Below, in pieces: positions 8,912-18,259 of a DNA stretch of 64,000 bases; the stretch's first letter is position 1, and each line of letters opens with the position of its first letter. The DNA comes from Marinovum sp. GTDB lineage: Bacteria; Pseudomonadota; Alphaproteobacteria; Rhodobacterales; Rhodobacteraceae. Under the pieces are notes generated by a model that worked only from the letters and a program-made list of their open reading frames with translations, did no database searches and was not told the origin of the DNA. The translations under genes and the position numbers were made by a program. The stretch lies in the NCBI GenBank assembly GCA_022447495.1, contig JAKVBH010000017.1, positions 26,915-90,914 of the forward strand. The letters run 5' to 3'.

Positions 8912-9197
8912 TCTTGGACGGACGCCGTTGGGGCGCCTTTGGTGTCCATAAATATCAGTGTTGGAGCTTTTGCGCCGCCAGCGTGGATACAATTAGTAAA
9001 CAGGCTGTTTCAGCCGCCTGCCCTGGGCGGGTCTGAACCTGGGGTATCCGTAAAAATCATTGGTGAACCAAGCGCGTACATCCCGAACGGGCGTCCAAGG
9101 ACATCGCGTCTTTGACCGCAGACACGGCTTTGTCAAAGGGTATATCCAAGCGGCACAGGTTCTCGTATTTGCAAAAATCAAAGTCATTAGGCATTTT

Positions 9198-10325
9198 ATG
9201 CTGATGCAGACGTTCGACTTTAGTCACAGCTTTTTTCTGGTTGCGATGGCCTGTATCGTCGCTGCCGTTGCGGGTTTCACTGGGCTTTCGCTCACCCGTG
9301 ATTTGTCGTCGAAACCAGCGTTCCAAAAGAAGGTGTCCGTAGCACTGGCGTCCATCGCGTTGGGCGGTGGGATCTGGTCGATGCACTTCATTGCGATGCT
9401 GGGACTGCAGTTGCCGATCCTATTTTACTACGACGCGGCAATCACGTTGGTCTCGGCGTTGACTGCGGTTTTGATCGTAGGAGGGGCTTTGATCCTGCTG
9501 CACTTCACAGAACGTACACCCCAAGTGATCACCATAGCCGGAGCCATTGTCGGGGTTGGTATCCTCGTGATGCATTATATCGGCATGGCCGGGTTGGAAC
9601 TGTGTCGTGCCGTCTACACGCCCATTGGGCTCCTGGTGTCGTCGGCTGTGGCCATTGTTCTGTGCGTTTTGGCTATTTGGATTGCCTATGGCACCCGTAC
9701 GAACCGCAACATTCTCATAGGGACCTTGTGTTTCGCCGCTGCCGTCTGTTCGGTGCACTTCTTGGCGATGGCTTGGACGGCTTTTGAACCTGTGCCTGGC
9801 GTGACGGATTTCGGCCCAAGCATGAGCAACCAAACCCTGGCGCTGGGTGTGATCATGTTCAGCTTCATCATCTTTGGGGCCTGCTTGTGGGTCAGCGTGA
9901 CGTATCTTGAAGGTCTTAAAGGTGAGGGCGGCGCTCAGGAGCCCGCACCTCAAACGGCACCGCATCAACCGCTTTTGCAAATCCCTTGTGAGCGGGATGG
10001 CAGCAAAGTGTTCGTCTCGCCAGCGGAGGTCCAATTCGTCCGCGCCGATGGGCATTACACCCAAGTCTACACCGCGTCTGAACGCATGTTTTGCGTGTGG
10101 CCTGTAACCGAGGCGTCGAAACGGCTTGTTCCCATGGGCTTTCTTCAGACGCACCGCAGTTACCTGGTCAATCCGGCGCATGTCACACGGTTTGAACGGA
10201 CCAAAGACAAGGGACGTTGCATCTTCTCTGGCGATGATCTCCCGCCCGCGCCGGTCAGCCGTGCCAAGCTCAAAACAGTTCAGGATGCGCTCGCAGCTCA
10301 TGTCGGCGCAATTCATGCACGCTAG
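9198..10325 (+). CDS. coxC: MHYT-domain membrane sensor with LytTR DNA-binding domain (CoxC/CoxH-like)
   Basis: Three MHYT-type repeats (WSMHFIAML, VMHYIGMAGL, SVHFLAMAWT), multiple TM segments, C-terminal LytTR (EVQFVRADGHYTQVYT...FLQTHRSYLVNPAHV). Directly upstream of coxM. Start ATG at 9198 rather than 9060. Confidence 0.85.
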   Translation: MLMQTFDFSHSFFLVAMACIVAAVAGFTGLSLTRDLSSKPAFQKKVSVALASIALGGGIWSMHFIAMLGLQLPILFYYDAAITLVSALTAVLIVGGALILLHFTERTPQVITIAGAIVGVGILVMHYIGMAGLELCRAVYTPIGLLVSSAVAIVLCVLAIWIAYGTRTNRNILIGTLCFAAAVCSVHFLAMAWTAFEPVPGVTDFGPSMSNQTLALGVIMFSFIIFGACLWVSVTYLEGLKGEGGAQEPAPQTAPHQPLLQIPCERDGSKVFVSPAEVQFVRADGHYTQVYTASERMFCVWPVTEASKRLVPMGFLQTHRSYLVNPAHVTRFERTKDKGRCIFSGDDLPPAPVSRAKLKTVQDALAAHVGAIHAR

Positions 10326-11302: not shown

Positions 11303-11797
11303 ATGTCAAAGAAACAACACTACACGATTACCGTGAACGGCAAGGAGGAAGAGTTCCTCGCCGAACCACGCGAATTGCTCATCTATACACTGCGCGAGCG
11401 GCTCAACATCACGGGCCCGCACATTGGCTGTGAAACATCCCATTGCGGCGCGTGCACGGTCACCATCGACGGCAAATCAGTCAAAGCGTGCACGATGTTT
11501 GTGGCGCAAGCCGATGGCAAAGATGTCACCACAATCGAGGGTATCGGTGGTCCCGACAATCTACATCCGCTTCAAAACGCGTTCAAAGAGCATCACGGGC
11601 TACAATGCGGATATTGCACCCCGGGCATGATCACCCGCGCCACTAAGTTTTTGGAAGAAAACCCAAACCCGACCGAAGAGGAAATCCGCTTCGGTATGGC
11701 CGGCAACATTTGCCGCTGCACCGGATACCAAAACATCGTGAAATCCATCCAGGCCGCTGCGGCTGAAATGAGTGCAGTCAGGGAGGCGGCAGAATGA
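11303..11797 (+). CDS. coxS: Carbon monoxide dehydrogenase small (2Fe-2S) subunit
   Basis: [12 protein letters not shown] and QCGYCTPGM...[12 protein letters not shown] double [2Fe-2S] motifs. Confidence 0.95.
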
Positions 11798-14223
11798 AAG
11801 ACGAAGTCACAAGCCGCGAAGAGAGGATTGAAAACCTCAAAGGCATGGGCTGCTCGCGCAAGCGTGTGGAAGATGCTCGTTTCACTCAAGGCAAGGGCAA
11901 TTACGTCGACGATATCAAGCTCGACGGGATGCTCTTTGGTGATTTTGTGCGCTCCCCCTATGCCCATGCCAAGGTGGTGAGCATCAACACCGAAGAAGCG
12001 ATGAAGGTCCCCGGCGTTCTCGCCGTTCTCACAGCCGCCGATCTGGCGCCATTGGGTTTGCATTGGATGCCCACCCTGGCGGGCGACAAACAGATGGTTT
12101 TGGCCGATGGCAAAGTGCTCTTCCAAGGTCAGGAAGTGGCCTTTGTGGTTGCAGAAGATCGCTACGCAGCGGCCGATGGGATCGAAGCGGTCGAGGTCGA
12201 ATATGAAGAGCTCGAAGTGCTCGTCGATCCGTTCAAATCCATGGGCTCAGACGTGGTCCTGCGCGAGGATACGGTGGACGATGCGGGCAAACCCGTGGAT
12301 GGCGCCCATGGTCCGCGCAAGCACCATAACCACATCTTTACGTGGGAAGCCGGTGACAAAGATCCGACGTTCGAGGTGATTGATGCCGCCGAGGTCGTGG
12401 CCGAAGAGACCATGTACTATCACCGCACGCACCCATGCCCGCTGGAAACCTGCGGTTGTGTGGCATCGATGGACAAGGTCAACGGGAAATTGACGCTGTG
12501 GGGCACGTTCCAAGCGCCGCACGCGATCCGCACAGTTGTGAGCCTCATCTCAGGGATTGAAGAACATAACATCCGGGTCATCAGCCCCGACATCGGCGGC
12601 GGGTTTGGCAACAAGGTGGGGGCTTACCCCGGCTATGTCTGCTCCGTTGTGGCCTCCATCGTTACCGGCAAACCGGTGAAGTGGATCGAAGACCGCATGG
12701 ACAACCTTATGACCACGGCCTTTGCCCGTGATTATTGGATGAAGGGCCGGATCAGCGCCACAAAAGAGGGCAAGATCACTGGGCTTCATTGTCATGTCAC
12801 AGCTGACCATGGCGGTTTTGACGCCTGCGCCGACCCGACGAAGTTCCCCGCAGGCTTCATGAACATCTGCACTGGGTCCTATGACATCCCAACGGCTTTT
12901 CTTGAAGTGGACGGTGTCTACACCAACAAGGCACCGGGCGGGGTCAGCTATCGTTGTTCCTTCCGCGTGACGGAAGCGGTCTACTTCATCGAGCGCATGA
13001 TCGAGGTGCTTGCGATTGAGTTAAGCATGGATGCAGCCGAACTGCGCCGGATCAACTTTATCAAAAAGGAGCAATTCCCCTACACCGCGGCACTTGGATG
13101 GGAATACGACAGCGGCGATTATCACACCGCCTGGGATAAGGCCCTCAAAACGGTCGACTACGCAGGCCTGCGCGCCGAACAAGCGCAGCGCGTGGAAGAC
13201 TTCAAGGCGGGCAAAACGCGGTCTCTGATGGGTGTCGGTCTGAGTTTCTTCACCGAAATCGTGGGCGCTGGACCGGTCAAAAATTGCGATATTCTTGGCC
13301 TTGGCATGTTCGATAGCTGTGAAATCCGCATCCACCCAACGGGCTCAGCCATTGCGCGCTTGGGCACGATCTCTCAAGGACAGGGACACGCAACCACGTT
13401 TGCGCAGATCCTGGCCTCCGAAATCGGCCTGCCCGCGGATTCCATCACCATCGAAGAGGGGGATACTGACACTGCGCCTTACGGTTTGGGCACCTACGGT
13501 TCCCGCTCAACGCCAGTGGCCGGTGCGGCGACCGCAATGGCCGGGCGTAAGATCCGGGCCAAGGCCCAGATGATCGCGGCCTATCTGCTCGAAGTTCACG
13601 ACGACGATGTCGAGTTTGACGTGGATCGGTTTGTCGTCAAAGGCGCACCAGAGCGGTTCAAGACGATGAAGGACATTGCCTTTGCCGCGTACAACCAGGC
13701 GATCCCAGGGATTGAACCCGGTTTGGAAGCGGTGAGTTACTACGATCCGCCGAACATGACCTATCCGTTTGGGGCCTATGTCTGTGTGATGGACATCGAC
13801 GTGGACACCGGCACCACCGACATCCGCCGTTTTTATGCGCTGGATGATTGTGGTACGCGGATCAACCCGATGGTCATCGAAGGCCAGGTCCACGGCGGCC
13901 TGACCGAAGCACTCGCCGTCGCCCTGGGCCAAGAAATTGCCTATGACGATATGGGCAACGTGAAGACCGGTACGTTGATGGATTTCTTCCTACCCACGGC
14001 GTGGGAAGTGCCAAACTATGAGACCGACCACACTGTCACGCCCTCACCGCACCATCCAATCGGTGCCAAGGGTGTGGGCGAAAGCCCCCACGTGGGCGGC
14101 GTGCCGTGCTTTTCCAATGCTGTGCAAGATGCGTTCCGCGCCTTTGGCCTGCGGCACACCAACATGCCTCATGACCACTGGCGCATCTGGAAAACCGCAA
14201 ACGAACTTGGCCTGCACGGCTAG
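11794..14223 (+). CDS. coxL: Carbon monoxide dehydrogenase large (molybdopterin) subunit, form I
   Basis: 809 aa. Contains SYRCSFR (12946-12966), matching the form I A-Y-X-C-S-F-R active-site loop. ATGA overlap with coxS. Confidence 0.94.
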
Positions 14224-14267: not shown

Positions 14268-15143
14268 ATGAATTGGACGGATCTACAAACTGCGCTCGGC
14301 GCTCAAGGATATGTTGCATCAAGCGATTTGTCCGTGGCGCTGCACCTTGCGATCTCGCTGGAGCGTCCCTTGTTGCTTGAAGGCGCTGCAGGTGTCGGCA
14401 AAACCGAGGTTGCCCGTACGCTCAGCCTCGCCCAAAACACCAAGCTCATTCGCTTGCAATGCTATGAAGGCTTGGATGCCTCCCAAGCAATTTATGAGTG
14501 GAACTATCAGCGTCAGCTTTTGACGATCCGCTCGGCGGCAGAGCATGGTGAAACCGGCAAATCGGTCGAGGATCGCATCTTTTCCCGCGATTTCCTGCTC
14601 GAACGCCCGCTGCTGGCCGCGATCACGCAAGACGTCCCGCCTGTGCTCTTGATCGACGAAATCGACCGGGCGGACGAAGAGTTCGAAGCCTATCTGCTTG
14701 AAGTCTTGTCGGATTATCAGGTCTCAGTGCCCGAGCTCGGTACGATCACAGCCACCAGCAAACCCATTGTCATCCTGACCTCAAACGGCACCCGCGACCT
14801 CAGCGATGCGCTGCGTCGCCGCTGCCTTTACACCTATGTCGATTATCCGGATCGCAGGACGGAACTCGCAATCCTCAAAGCACGCTGCCCCCAAGTTGAA
14901 AACCGCTTGTCGGATCAAATCATTGGCTTTGTTCAAAAACTGCGTGAAGAGGAGCTTGAGAAAAGACCCGGCATTGCCGAGATGCTCGATTTCGCCGCCG
15001 CATTAATGGGGCTTGGCATTGCCGATCTCACCGATGATCCAGCCGTGCTGCAATCCACGCTCACTACGCTGCTCAAAACGCAAACCGATCAAGCGCAGAT
15101 TTCGACTGAGGTGGCCCAACGCCTCGCGGGGAAAGCAGCATGA
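14268..15143 (+). CDS. coxD: MoxR-type AAA+ ATPase, CoxD
   Basis: Walker A GAAGVGKTE, Walker B LLIDEIDRA; position after coxL. Confidence 0.9.
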   Translation: MNWTDLQTALGAQGYVASSDLSVALHLAISLERPLLLEGAAGVGKTEVARTLSLAQNTKLIRLQCYEGLDASQAIYEWNYQRQLLTIRSAAEHGETGKSVEDRIFSRDFLLERPLLAAITQDVPPVLLIDEIDRADEEFEAYLLEVLSDYQVSVPELGTITATSKPIVILTSNGTRDLSDALRRRCLYTYVDYPDRRTELAILKARCPQVENRLSDQIIGFVQKLREEELEKRPGIAEMLDFAAALMGLGIADLTDDPAVLQSTLTTLLKTQTDQAQISTEVAQRLAGKAA

Positions 15144-16321
15144 GCCGCGTGACGCGCTTTGCCGCCCGCGATCCTGGGCCAGCCGCGCGCATGGTGGGCT
15201 TCATCGCGCATTTGCGTGAGAAAGGTCTACGATTGGGAGTGGCCGAAGCGGATCTCAGCTTGAACGCGCTAACCGCTGTGAATGCCAGCCACCCCGAAGA
15301 CTGCCGTCGCGCCCTGCGGGCCACCTGCACCGGATGCAAAGAAGAAGCTGAACGCTTTGATGCGCTGTTCGACAGTTTCTGGCTGGATGCGGGCCGCGTG
15401 AAACAGCGCATCGTGCCCAAACCACACGCCGCTTTGAACACTGACGTTCACAGCTCCCGCGATGGCACTGGACAAGACGCACGCGTCAGCGGGACATCCA
15501 CGTCTCCGGAGACGGGTGAGGGGGAGGCCGACAGTGACGGCACCGGCAAGCTCATCGCCACCAAACAAAGCAATCTCAGCCGCCGTGACCTGCGCGACCT
15601 GGTCCGGGCCGAAGATGTCGCTGAAGCGGAATTGGTGGCCCGTCGCATCGGCGCGGCCCTGCGTGACAAACGCTCGCGCCGCCGCATCGCGGCTCGCAAA
15701 GGCGACCGGTTACACTTTCGCAAGACCATACGGCGCAGCCTGTCCACAGGGGCGGAACCGCTGCGGCTCCTGCGCAAACGCCGCCCGGATCGCGACCGTA
15801 AGATTGTCGCTCTGTGCGATGTCTCTGGGTCGATGAGCGTTTATTCGAAAATCTTCCTGGCCTTTCTGACCGGGCTCATGCGCGCGGACAAAAACGCGGA
15901 TGCCTATCTCTTTCACACGCGACTTGTTCGGATCACCGAAGCGCTGCGCGACAAAGACGCGATGCGCGCCATTGGGCGGATGTCGCTCATGGCGGATGGG
16001 TTTGGCGGTGGCTCCAAGATCGGCCCCTCGTTGCAGCGTTTTGCCGACACCTATGCCAAGCGCTTTGTTGATGGTCGCAGCGTCGTCCTGGTCCTGTCCG
16101 ACGGATACGACGCCGAGCCGCCCGAACACCTCGCCGTAGCCCTAGCCAAACTCAAGAAACGTGGCTGCAAGATCATCTGGGTCAACCCGCTCAAAGGCTG
16201 GCGTGACTATGCGCCCATCGCAGGGGCCATGGCGGCGGCCTTACCACATCTCGATGTGTTCGCGGCGGCAAACACACTCGATGATCTTGCCGCGCTCGAG
16301 ACAGAATTGGCGCATCTATGA
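15140..16321 (+). CDS. coxE: VWA-domain protein, CoxE
   Basis: MIDAS-like DVSGSMS, overlaps the coxD stop. Confidence 0.9.
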   Translation: MSRVTRFAARDPGPAARMVGFIAHLREKGLRLGVAEADLSLNALTAVNASHPEDCRRALRATCTGCKEEAERFDALFDSFWLDAGRVKQRIVPKPHAALNTDVHSSRDGTGQDARVSGTSTSPETGEGEADSDGTGKLIATKQSNLSRRDLRDLVRAEDVAEAELVARRIGAALRDKRSRRRIAARKGDRLHFRKTIRRSLSTGAEPLRLLRKRRPDRDRKIVALCDVSGSMSVYSKIFLAFLTGLMRADKNADAYLFHTRLVRITEALRDKDAMRAIGRMSLMADGFGGGSKIGPSLQRFADTYAKRFVDGRSVVLVLSDGYDAEPPEHLAVALAKLKKRGCKIIWVNPLKGWRDYAPIAGAMAAALPHLDVFAAANTLDDLAALETELAHL

Positions 16322-17100
16322 CCCCGGCAGAAGTCCTTGATGGTGACCTCGCAGAAGCCGCGCAAAACCTGCGCGACAAGTTGGAACCCTTTGCCTTTGC
16401 AACGATTGTGCGCACCGCAGGCGCAACGGCTGCCAAACCCGGAGCGAAAGCTCTGCTGAGTGCAGATGGCACGATCCTCCACGGCTGGCTTGGCGGGGGA
16501 TGCACGCGGGGCGCTGTTAAACGCGCTGCCATTGACGCCTTGCAAAGCGGCGCTCCGCAGTTGATCTCGGTTGCGCCCGAGGACCTGCTGGAGGAGTTGG
16601 GCGTAGCGGCGGGTGACACAGTCGACGGAACGCGGTTTGCCCGCAATGGGTGTCCGTCACGGGGCACGGTCGATATCTTCATCGAACCCAGTCTGCCCAT
16701 GCCAGAACTTGTCGTGCTTGGCGCTTCGCCCGTGGCCCAAGCCATCACCGCGCTCGCTCCGCAGTTTCACTGGCACGTGGCCTCAACGCTTGCCGAAGGC
16801 GTGGCCGCCGCGCGCCAAAAATACGTGGTGATTGCCACGCAGGGGCAGGGGGATTTGAACGCACTTAAATCGGCACTCTCGGGACCGGTCGATTATGTCG
16901 CGTTTGTTGGCAGCGCGCGAAAATACGCGACCCTAGCGGAGAAACTGCGCGCGAGCGGCGTCTCTGCAGAGGCCATTCGATCGGTCGACGCGCCAGCGGG
17001 CCTCGATCTGGGCGCCGTTACGCCAGAAGAAATCGCTCTCTCGATCCTTGCCCAACTGGTGCGCGTACGCCGCCAGGGACGGGTGGATCAACATGTTTGA
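16318..17100 (+). CDS. coxF: XdhC/CoxF family protein
   Basis: XdhC-like ATIVRTAGATAAKPGAKALLSADGTILHGWLGGGCTRGAV; overlaps the coxE stop. Confidence 0.88.
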   Translation: MTPAEVLDGDLAEAAQNLRDKLEPFAFATIVRTAGATAAKPGAKALLSADGTILHGWLGGGCTRGAVKRAAIDALQSGAPQLISVAPEDLLEELGVAAGDTVDGTRFARNGCPSRGTVDIFIEPSLPMPELVVLGASPVAQAITALAPQFHWHVASTLAEGVAAARQKYVVIATQGQGDLNALKSALSGPVDYVAFVGSARKYATLAEKLRASGVSAEAIRSVDAPAGLDLGAVTPEEIALSILAQLVRVRRQGRVDQHV

Positions 17101-17701
17101 GATGGCCGCCATACTCTTGGCTGCGGGGCTGTCGCGCAGGATGGGACCGACAAATAAACTCCTATTGGAGATCAGCGGCAAACCAATGGTGCGGCATGTG
17201 GCCGAAACCTATCTCTCTGCCATCGACGGTCCATTGACCGTTGTCACAGGGTTCGAAGCTGACCGGGTTGGCGCTGCGTTATGGGGGCTCGACCTACATT
17301 TGGTTCATAACGATGTATTTATTCGCGGCCAGCCAAGCTCCGTGTCCGCGGGCTTGGTTGCTGCGCCAGAGGCCGAACTGTTGCTGATCGGATTGGCAGA
17401 TCAACCCTTGCTGACGGCCTCAAACCTTCGATCGCTCATGGCCTGTCACAAGAATGCTGACCCGCGTCGGATCACGATCCCAATGCGTGGCGATCGCCGG
17501 GGCAATCCAATTGTCATCCCGCGCCTTCTGAGGGACCGGCTTACCGAGAACCCCGAGCGCCCTGGGTGCATGCGGTTCACCCGTGACTTTCCCGAGCATG
17601 TGCAACGCGCGCCCATGGAGGCCGATGGTTTCTACCACGATATCGACACACTGGACGACTCGCGCGCGCTCCCAGCATCGGATGCGGAGGTCGTGACATG
17701 A
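17093..17701 (+). CDS. Molybdenum cofactor nucleotidyltransferase (MobA/MocA-like)
   Basis: AAILLAAGLSRRMGPTNKLLLEISGKPM nucleotidyltransferase signature. Start ATG at 17093 overlaps the coxF stop. Confidence 0.88.
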   Translation: MFEMAAILLAAGLSRRMGPTNKLLLEISGKPMVRHVAETYLSAIDGPLTVVTGFEADRVGAALWGLDLHLVHNDVFIRGQPSSVSAGLVAAPEAELLLIGLADQPLLTASNLRSLMACHKNADPRRITIPMRGDRRGNPIVIPRLLRDRLTENPERPGCMRFTRDFPEHVQRAPMEADGFYHDIDTLDDSRALPASDAEVVT

Positions 17702-17790
17702 AACGTATCGCCCGCCGCATGATTGCGTTGATCTCTAGGCTCAAACCGACGCCTGAGCAGGTCGAGAATATTCGATTCCCCTGTTGTTAA
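17698..17790 (+). CDS. Putative 30-aa micro-ORF in the cox operon
   Basis: ATGA overlap with the mobA-like stop. Translates to MKRIARRMIALISRLKPTPEQVENIRFPCC*; lies between the mobA-like gene and coxG. Below the length cutoff of the supplied ORF track. Confidence 0.45.
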   Translation: MKRIARRMIALISRLKPTPEQVENIRFPCC

Positions 17791-17806: not shown

Positions 17807-18259
17807 ATGGAACTGAACGACGAAATCATCATCAACGCGCCAAAAGAGCGGGTGTATGCGGCGCTGAATGATCCTGAAATCCTCAAAGACTGTATTCCGG
17901 GCTGTGAAGAGTTGATCAAGCATTCCGACACGGAATTGGAAGCCAAAGTTGTCCTGAAAATCGGCCCGGTCAAAGCCCGGTTCAGCGGCGATGTGGTGCT
18001 CGACCAATCGGGTGCACCGGATGCATTTTCACTTTCTGGTCGCGGCAATGGTGGTGCGGCTGGGCACGCCAAGGGCGGTGCTGACGTGACGTTGACGGCG
18101 GACGGAGACACGACCGTACTGCGCTATGAGGCCAAGGCGGAGATCGGCGGGAAACTGGCACAACTCGGCAGTCGTCTGGTCCAAAGTACCGCCAAAAAGC
18201 TGGCCGCGAAGTTCTTTAAATCCTTTGCCGAAGTTGTCGATGAAACTGTCTCAGCCTGA
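17807..18259 (+). CDS. coxG: CoxG-like SRPBCC domain protein
   Basis: MELNDEIIINAPKERVYAALNDPEILKDCIPGCEEL...TKFFKSF-like end; CoxG/SRPBCC pattern. Confidence 0.9.
   Translation: MELNDEIIINAPKERVYAALNDPEILKDCIPGCEELIKHSDTELEAKVVLKIGPVKARFSGDVVLDQSGAPDAFSLSGRGNGGAAGHAKGGADVTLTADGDTTVLRYEAKAEIGGKLAQLGSRLVQSTAKKLAAKFFKSFAEVVDETVSA

Follow-up and report, generated by a model that had tools for sequence, protein, structure and literature searches.

Marine members of the Rhodobacteraceae are important oxidisers of carbon monoxide (CO), and what is known of how their CO dehydrogenase (CODH) passes electrons on to the membrane comes only from a few distant models that have other forms of CoxG. Small accessory subunits are common in respiratory enzymes, and those of the CcoM and CydX type, about 30-40 amino acids (aa) in length, were long overlooked. 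Cu(I) metallochaperones of the Cox17 type carry an adjacent Cys pair after a Pro residue.

For CoxG, roles in bringing enzymes to the membrane or anchoring them there (PMC4240915; PMC11962113) and in electron transfer to quinone (PMC13240472) have been shown or proposed; the study of Kropp et al. 2025 on CoxG and quinone extraction is considered here as far as it is presented in PMC13240472. In Oligotropha, CODH from a coxG mutant had a Cu content of 1.48 versus 1.47 mol/mol with normal sulfane sulfur, and CODH from the coxE and coxF mutants was without Cu (PMC4240915, Table 1). In Rhodobacter capsulatus, CutF (DUF2946) of the cutFOG genes carries a Sec signal and an internal CxxxC, its end is Pro-rich, and a stem-loop shields the Shine-Dalgarno sequence (PMC9973294).

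Here we describe a 30-aa open reading frame (ORF) of a form I cox operon in Marinovum sp., analysed within a window of 64,000 nucleotides (the whole stretch under study; contig JAKVBH010000017.1, positions 26,915 to 90,914). The ORF belongs to a new clade-specific microprotein family, previously unnamed.

The cox operon and its small open reading frame

The genes of the operon lie in the order coxM-S-L-D-E-xdhC-mobA-ORF-coxG. The features referred to below are as follows (positions in the window, strand, description):

11794..14223, +, coxL, form I (TIGR02416, 1381 bits; YRCSFR motif)
14268..15143, +, coxD (AAA+ ATPase)
15140..16321, +, coxE (VWA_CoxE)
16318..17100, +, XdhC/CoxI family gene (CoxF position)
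17093..17701, +, MobA/MocA-like nucleotidyltransferase (PF12804), a variable neighbour missing at many loci
17686..17690, +, Shine-Dalgarno sequence GGAGG of the microprotein, within the 3' end of mobA, read from the sequence
17698..17790, +, microprotein ORF, 30 aa
17701..17742, +, N-terminal helix of the microprotein, cationic and amphipathic (residues 2-15; net charge +5, hydrophobic moment 0.83)
17746..17787, +, conserved C-terminal block PTPEQVENIRFPCC, with PCC nearly invariant and biased codons for the last five residues
17793..17797, +, Shine-Dalgarno sequence AAGGA of coxG, read from the sequence
17807..18259, +, coxG, short tail-less form, 150 aa (PF06240)

The frame opened by the ATG at 17698 translates as MKRIARRMIALISRLKPTPEQVENIRFPCC. 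Its start codon overlaps the MobA-like stop (TGA, 17699-17701) as ATGA, as originally described, and the ORF does occupy the slot ahead of coxG, its stop codon TAA being at 17788-17790 and the coxG start at 17807. The coupling to mobA applies to the window and not to the family, since many related loci are without mobA and have the ORF 3' of xdhC; across loci, coxG is the constant neighbour and mobA the variable one. Upstream of coxM, at 9060-10325, the window also encodes a membrane protein that is MHYT-like and has a LytTR-like C-terminus, likely the cox regulator; other form I clusters have annotated MHYT-domain genes at the equivalent place.

No trusted-level family match was obtained for the microprotein in Pfam (best E 0.09, below the cut-off), NCBIfam or PHROGs, and the motif IKFPCC had no occurrence in the literature searched. 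Among the Rhodobacteraceae plasmid records examined that carry the ORF, one annotates it, as hypothetical protein WP_301547026.1 (13312-13434 of locus L225, plasmid of Marivivens sp. JLT3646). Apart from this single relative, the ORF escapes normal annotation as had been supposed. Matches of PDB profiles to TALE repeats stem from likeness to the TPEQ helix and were dismissed, and a RiPP or methanobactin precursor was rejected as none of the cox genes examined was recognisable as encoding a modifying enzyme.

Conservation, selection and distribution

Related loci were collected with CoxL as the query (n=80). The pattern ATHMRNTTYCCNTGYTGYTRR (I-K/R-F-P-C-C-stop) was found in 41 of 397 genomes of the same family, against 2 for a reversed-pattern control, and 40 of the 41 belong to the set with a form I CoxL match. 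In the fetched loci the pattern lies between xdhC/mobA and coxG, or 3' of xdhC if coxG is missing; the exceptions are chance matches, e.g. at L112. With one locus taken per genus, a small ORF is present in the pre-coxG slot of 60 of the 72 Rhodobacteraceae form I loci that have an adjacent coxG. These ORFs are about 30-50 aa in length and stop 14-31 nt 5' of coxG. Their common layout (consensus MxxLxxxxxRLRRxxxLTPEQAExLAxIKFPCC) starts with a variable N-terminal helix that is cationic and amphipathic, continues with a TPEQA..LA block and ends in IKFPCC* or FP[K/R]CC*; a looser reading of the slot added the ends IKLPCC, VKYPCC and IKSPCC, and a deep sister clade ends in VFPRCC, FPKCC or AYPRCC. 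The microprotein of R. pomeroyi SZCCDBG043 (locus L030), for example, reads MMRLVKRLKALREKLKMTPEQANNIRFPCC. PSC, PYC or decayed versions occur in a few lineages (L045, L089, L033, L050). At 1483-1575 of locus L002 (genome G035), which has no coxG downstream, an in-frame TGA follows the fifth codon (MTGWV*RLLCRLRPNPAQAEVLSRIKFPCC) and may reflect a sequencing error, another start or decay.

Pooled over related pairs and with uncorrected distances, pN/pS of the C-terminal block was 0.26 in the long subfamily and 0.14 in the subfamily without three residues, falling to 0.08 and 0.04, respectively, over the last six codons, while residues 2-15 averaged +4.4 in charge, compared with +1.05 for the other frames, and had a hydrophobic moment above that of shuffled composition in 89%; as these selection and charge tests count related sequences separately, the statistics are optimistic, with effects that are large. 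Variation is greatest at third codon positions, all three stop codons are in use, and indels are of whole codons. Read from these sequences, selection acts on the protein, and the ORF is a genuine conserved protein-coding microprotein of form I cox operons that is presumably translated in vivo. The original prediction was to be given up if start, frame and Cys pair were unconserved or if dN/dS was near 1; it stands, because all three are kept in related cox loci and pN/pS is well below 1. Its basic amphipathic N-terminus was likewise borne out, and the terminal Cys-Cys proved near-invariant across the family. A chance ORF, or a DNA or RNA element that happens to be readable as a peptide, is highly improbable. 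Such an element could account for nucleotide-level constraint near the stop, but not for a pN/pS far below 1, the interchange of stop and synonymous codons, a conserved peptide with whole-codon indels and the excess of the pattern over its control.

A search of 387 Alphaproteobacteria genomes with a microprotein profile, made mainly from IKFPCC forms so that divergent forms could escape, gave convincing matches in Rhodobacteraceae only; form I coxL is present in twelve genomes of this sample from outside the family. Between xdhC and coxG, the form I operons of Afipia, Bradyrhizobium and Rhizobium contain no ORF of this kind, and on Oligotropha (Afipia) pHCG3, where the ORF is absent, xdhC and coxG overlap. 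The microprotein, first envisaged for form I clusters at large, is accordingly a feature of the Rhodobacteraceae as far as these genomes go.

Linkage to coxG and competing explanations

The microprotein tracks coxG. In the table with one entry per genus, 60 genera have both, 12 have coxG only, 3 have the microprotein only and 16 have neither (Fisher p 7e-8). Of 10 supported independent pairs on the tree, an average of 6.5 had the microprotein following coxG and 0.2 had the two in opposition, with a median p of 0.03 in the tree-based sign test of coxG against the microprotein. With about 15 and 18 changes, the losses are scattered across the tree; they often coincide, and part of this co-loss may be due to single deletions of the operon 3' end because the two genes adjoin there. 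Three genera keep the ORF without an adjacent coxG, and therefore the partner need not be that CoxG. A second CoxG, 44-55% identical to that of the window, is encoded elsewhere in all 18 loss genomes tested and in genome G271, and it mostly adjoins form II-type genes. An apparent tracking of the microprotein by CoxG residue 87 (His vs Phe) was dropped, the signal being gone after allowing for phylogeny. Individual loci show further states: an intact microprotein with a broken remnant of coxG after it on the Roseivivax THAF197b plasmid (L184, 13440-13733), NPFPCC in frame with CoxG and directly 5' of coxG at L140, which may be a remnant or a fusion, and a coxE apparently in two pieces at L069 (8569-9582).

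The persistence of the ORF in those three genera would suit a reading in which the microprotein is a small subunit, structural or regulatory, that belongs to CODH or to some other membrane complex, is co-transcribed with coxG and does not act via CoxG; small accessory subunits are, as mentioned, frequent in respiratory enzymes. We consider such a subunit rather unlikely, however, given the strong linkage to coxG with repeated co-loss, and given that the form I CODH clusters examined from beyond the Rhodobacteraceae showed no such ORF.

The same co-loss bears on the suggestion, made when the ORF was first noticed, that its Cys-Cys end takes part in Cu or S delivery. Here the pair would bind Cu(I) or a persulfide, a putative binding, and deliver it to the [CuSMoO2] site. 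The near-invariant terminal Cys pair, the confinement of the ORF to form I (Cu-containing) CODH operons and the presence of CC also in the tails of Hyphomicrobiales form I CoxG are in line with this role, as are the lower specific activity and higher Zn of the coxG-mutant CODH (PMC4240915). However, 16 genera keep form I coxL, coxD, coxE and xdhC after losing both the microprotein and the adjacent coxG, an argument that presumes functional CODHs in these genera. The ORF is also missing in Afipia, and a few lineages end in PSC or PYC (L045, L089). Furthermore, the microprotein is coupled to coxG, yet CODH from the coxG mutant of Oligotropha is normal in Cu and sulfane sulfur, and it is CODH from the coxE and coxF mutants that is without Cu (PMC4240915). 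A maturation role is thus improbable. An adjacent Cys pair after Pro is shared with Cu(I) metallochaperones such as Cox17, but the microprotein has neither the chaperone fold nor homology to them, and the phylogenetic and mutant evidence is against Cu loading.

Alternatively, the ORF might encode a leader or arrest peptide: its translation, while the ribosome holds the P-C-C-stop end, would govern initiation at coxG, which begins 14-31 nt further on, much as CutF or cysteine-rich attenuator ORFs do. Conservation is densest in the last 17 residues, the spacing to coxG is tight and fixed, and the last codons (17773-17787 and related loci) carry a strong synonymous bias that is compatible with C-terminal ribosome pausing. 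In these KFPCC codons AAA, CCC and TGT are favoured (AAA 92 of 118 against 42 expected, CCG 0 against 49, TGT 87 against 32), and peptide selection does not explain the bias. In the four copies that lack an intact coxG (L002, L146, L258, L184), the codon of the first Cys is TGC and not TGT, a hint that coxG is needed for the bias, and CutF supplies a Rhodobacter precedent (PMC9973294). On the other hand, intact copies persist without coxG at L146 and L258, and the cationic amphipathic N-terminus, needless for a leader, is kept despite sequence change. An RNAalifold structure at the coxG junction was significant against column shuffles, which ignore coding, but showed no excess over synonymous recoding and was discarded. 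As the junctions have slightly less structure than their synonymously recoded versions (mean z +0.45) and pairing of the coxG Shine-Dalgarno sequence is unaffected by recoding, a CutF-like shielding stem-loop is not indicated. CutF resembles the microprotein in being a small ORF directly 5' of a gene in a related bacterium, with Cys and Pro towards the C-terminus; it differs in its Pro-rich end, its stem-loop, and its Sec signal and internal CxxxC, both of which are absent from the sequences of the microprotein family. We regard a leader or arrest peptide as unlikely, although it keeps appreciable weight because the strong bias in the last codons is unexplained.

CoxG tails and a proposed membrane tether

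In 141 of 141 locus records with coxG, some from genomes sampled twice, the Rhodobacteraceae form I CoxG is 147-161 aa in length. It stops after the last helix, at about residue 150, without a linker or a C-terminal tail of basic or hydrophobic character. In form I clusters elsewhere, CoxG mostly has 189-227 aa and a basic amphipathic and/or transmembrane (TM) tail. Five form I sequences of the Hyphomicrobiales type have tails of KKxGWxK, a hydrophobic stretch and CC; form II CoxG of those families ends in a TM segment with no CC, and the form II-type CoxG of Rhodobacteraceae has mostly KKKGWFKRLxG-like tails. Since CoxG is short here and tailed elsewhere, the microprotein looks like the missing tail encoded separately. 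Twelve genera have a short CoxG with no tail and no ORF, and the 154-aa CoxG of Shinella and Rhizobium jaguaris is accompanied by neither a tail nor the microprotein.

Based on these sequence comparisons, we propose, with a probability of about 0.45, that the microprotein is a CoxG tail that has become detached and works in trans as a membrane tether or adaptor for CODH. It would be translated and remain in the cytoplasm, with CoxG, the SRPBCC protein that would join Mo-CODH to the membrane and the quinone pool, as its partner. The N-terminal cationic amphipathic helix would rest against the inner face of the membrane, with a short second helix after it, and the terminal P-C-C would dock on CoxG or CODH, helping to bring CODH to the membrane for electron transfer. 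AlphaFold predicts a helix at residues 2-14/15, a short helix at 19-22/24 and an open PCC tail, both alone and in fusion. In the read-through microprotein-CoxG fusion, a weak test owing to its short linker, confidence of the PCC tail was 62-66 compared with about 81 alone; there was no gain and therefore no structural sign of docking. The detached-tail model also leaves the KFPCC codon bias unexplained. A more doubtful extension is that part of the CODH-membrane link was split off in such a way that its terminal cysteine pair is a functional element (redox, metal or docking) in the transfer of CO-derived electrons.

Published inventories of cox genes in marine Rhodobacteraceae are incomplete, and a conserved, essentially unannotated gene of the operon provides a concrete and easily deleted target for testing membrane coupling.

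With respect to known systems, the proposed tether is closest in layout to the form I CoxG tail of the Hyphomicrobiales (Afipia/Oligotropha pHCG3, Bradyrhizobium), which also serves a form I CODH and has a basic amphipathic segment followed by CC at similar spacing. That tail, however, is part of CoxG, includes a TM-like hydrophobic stretch and has extra residues past the CC; no sequence homology was detected between the microprotein and CoxG tails, the likeness being one of layout only. CcoM and CydX resemble the microprotein in their size of about 30-40 aa, in having been overlooked and in being co-encoded with a membrane electron-transfer system, but they have TM helices whereas the microprotein has a cationic amphipathic helix and a Cys-Cys end.
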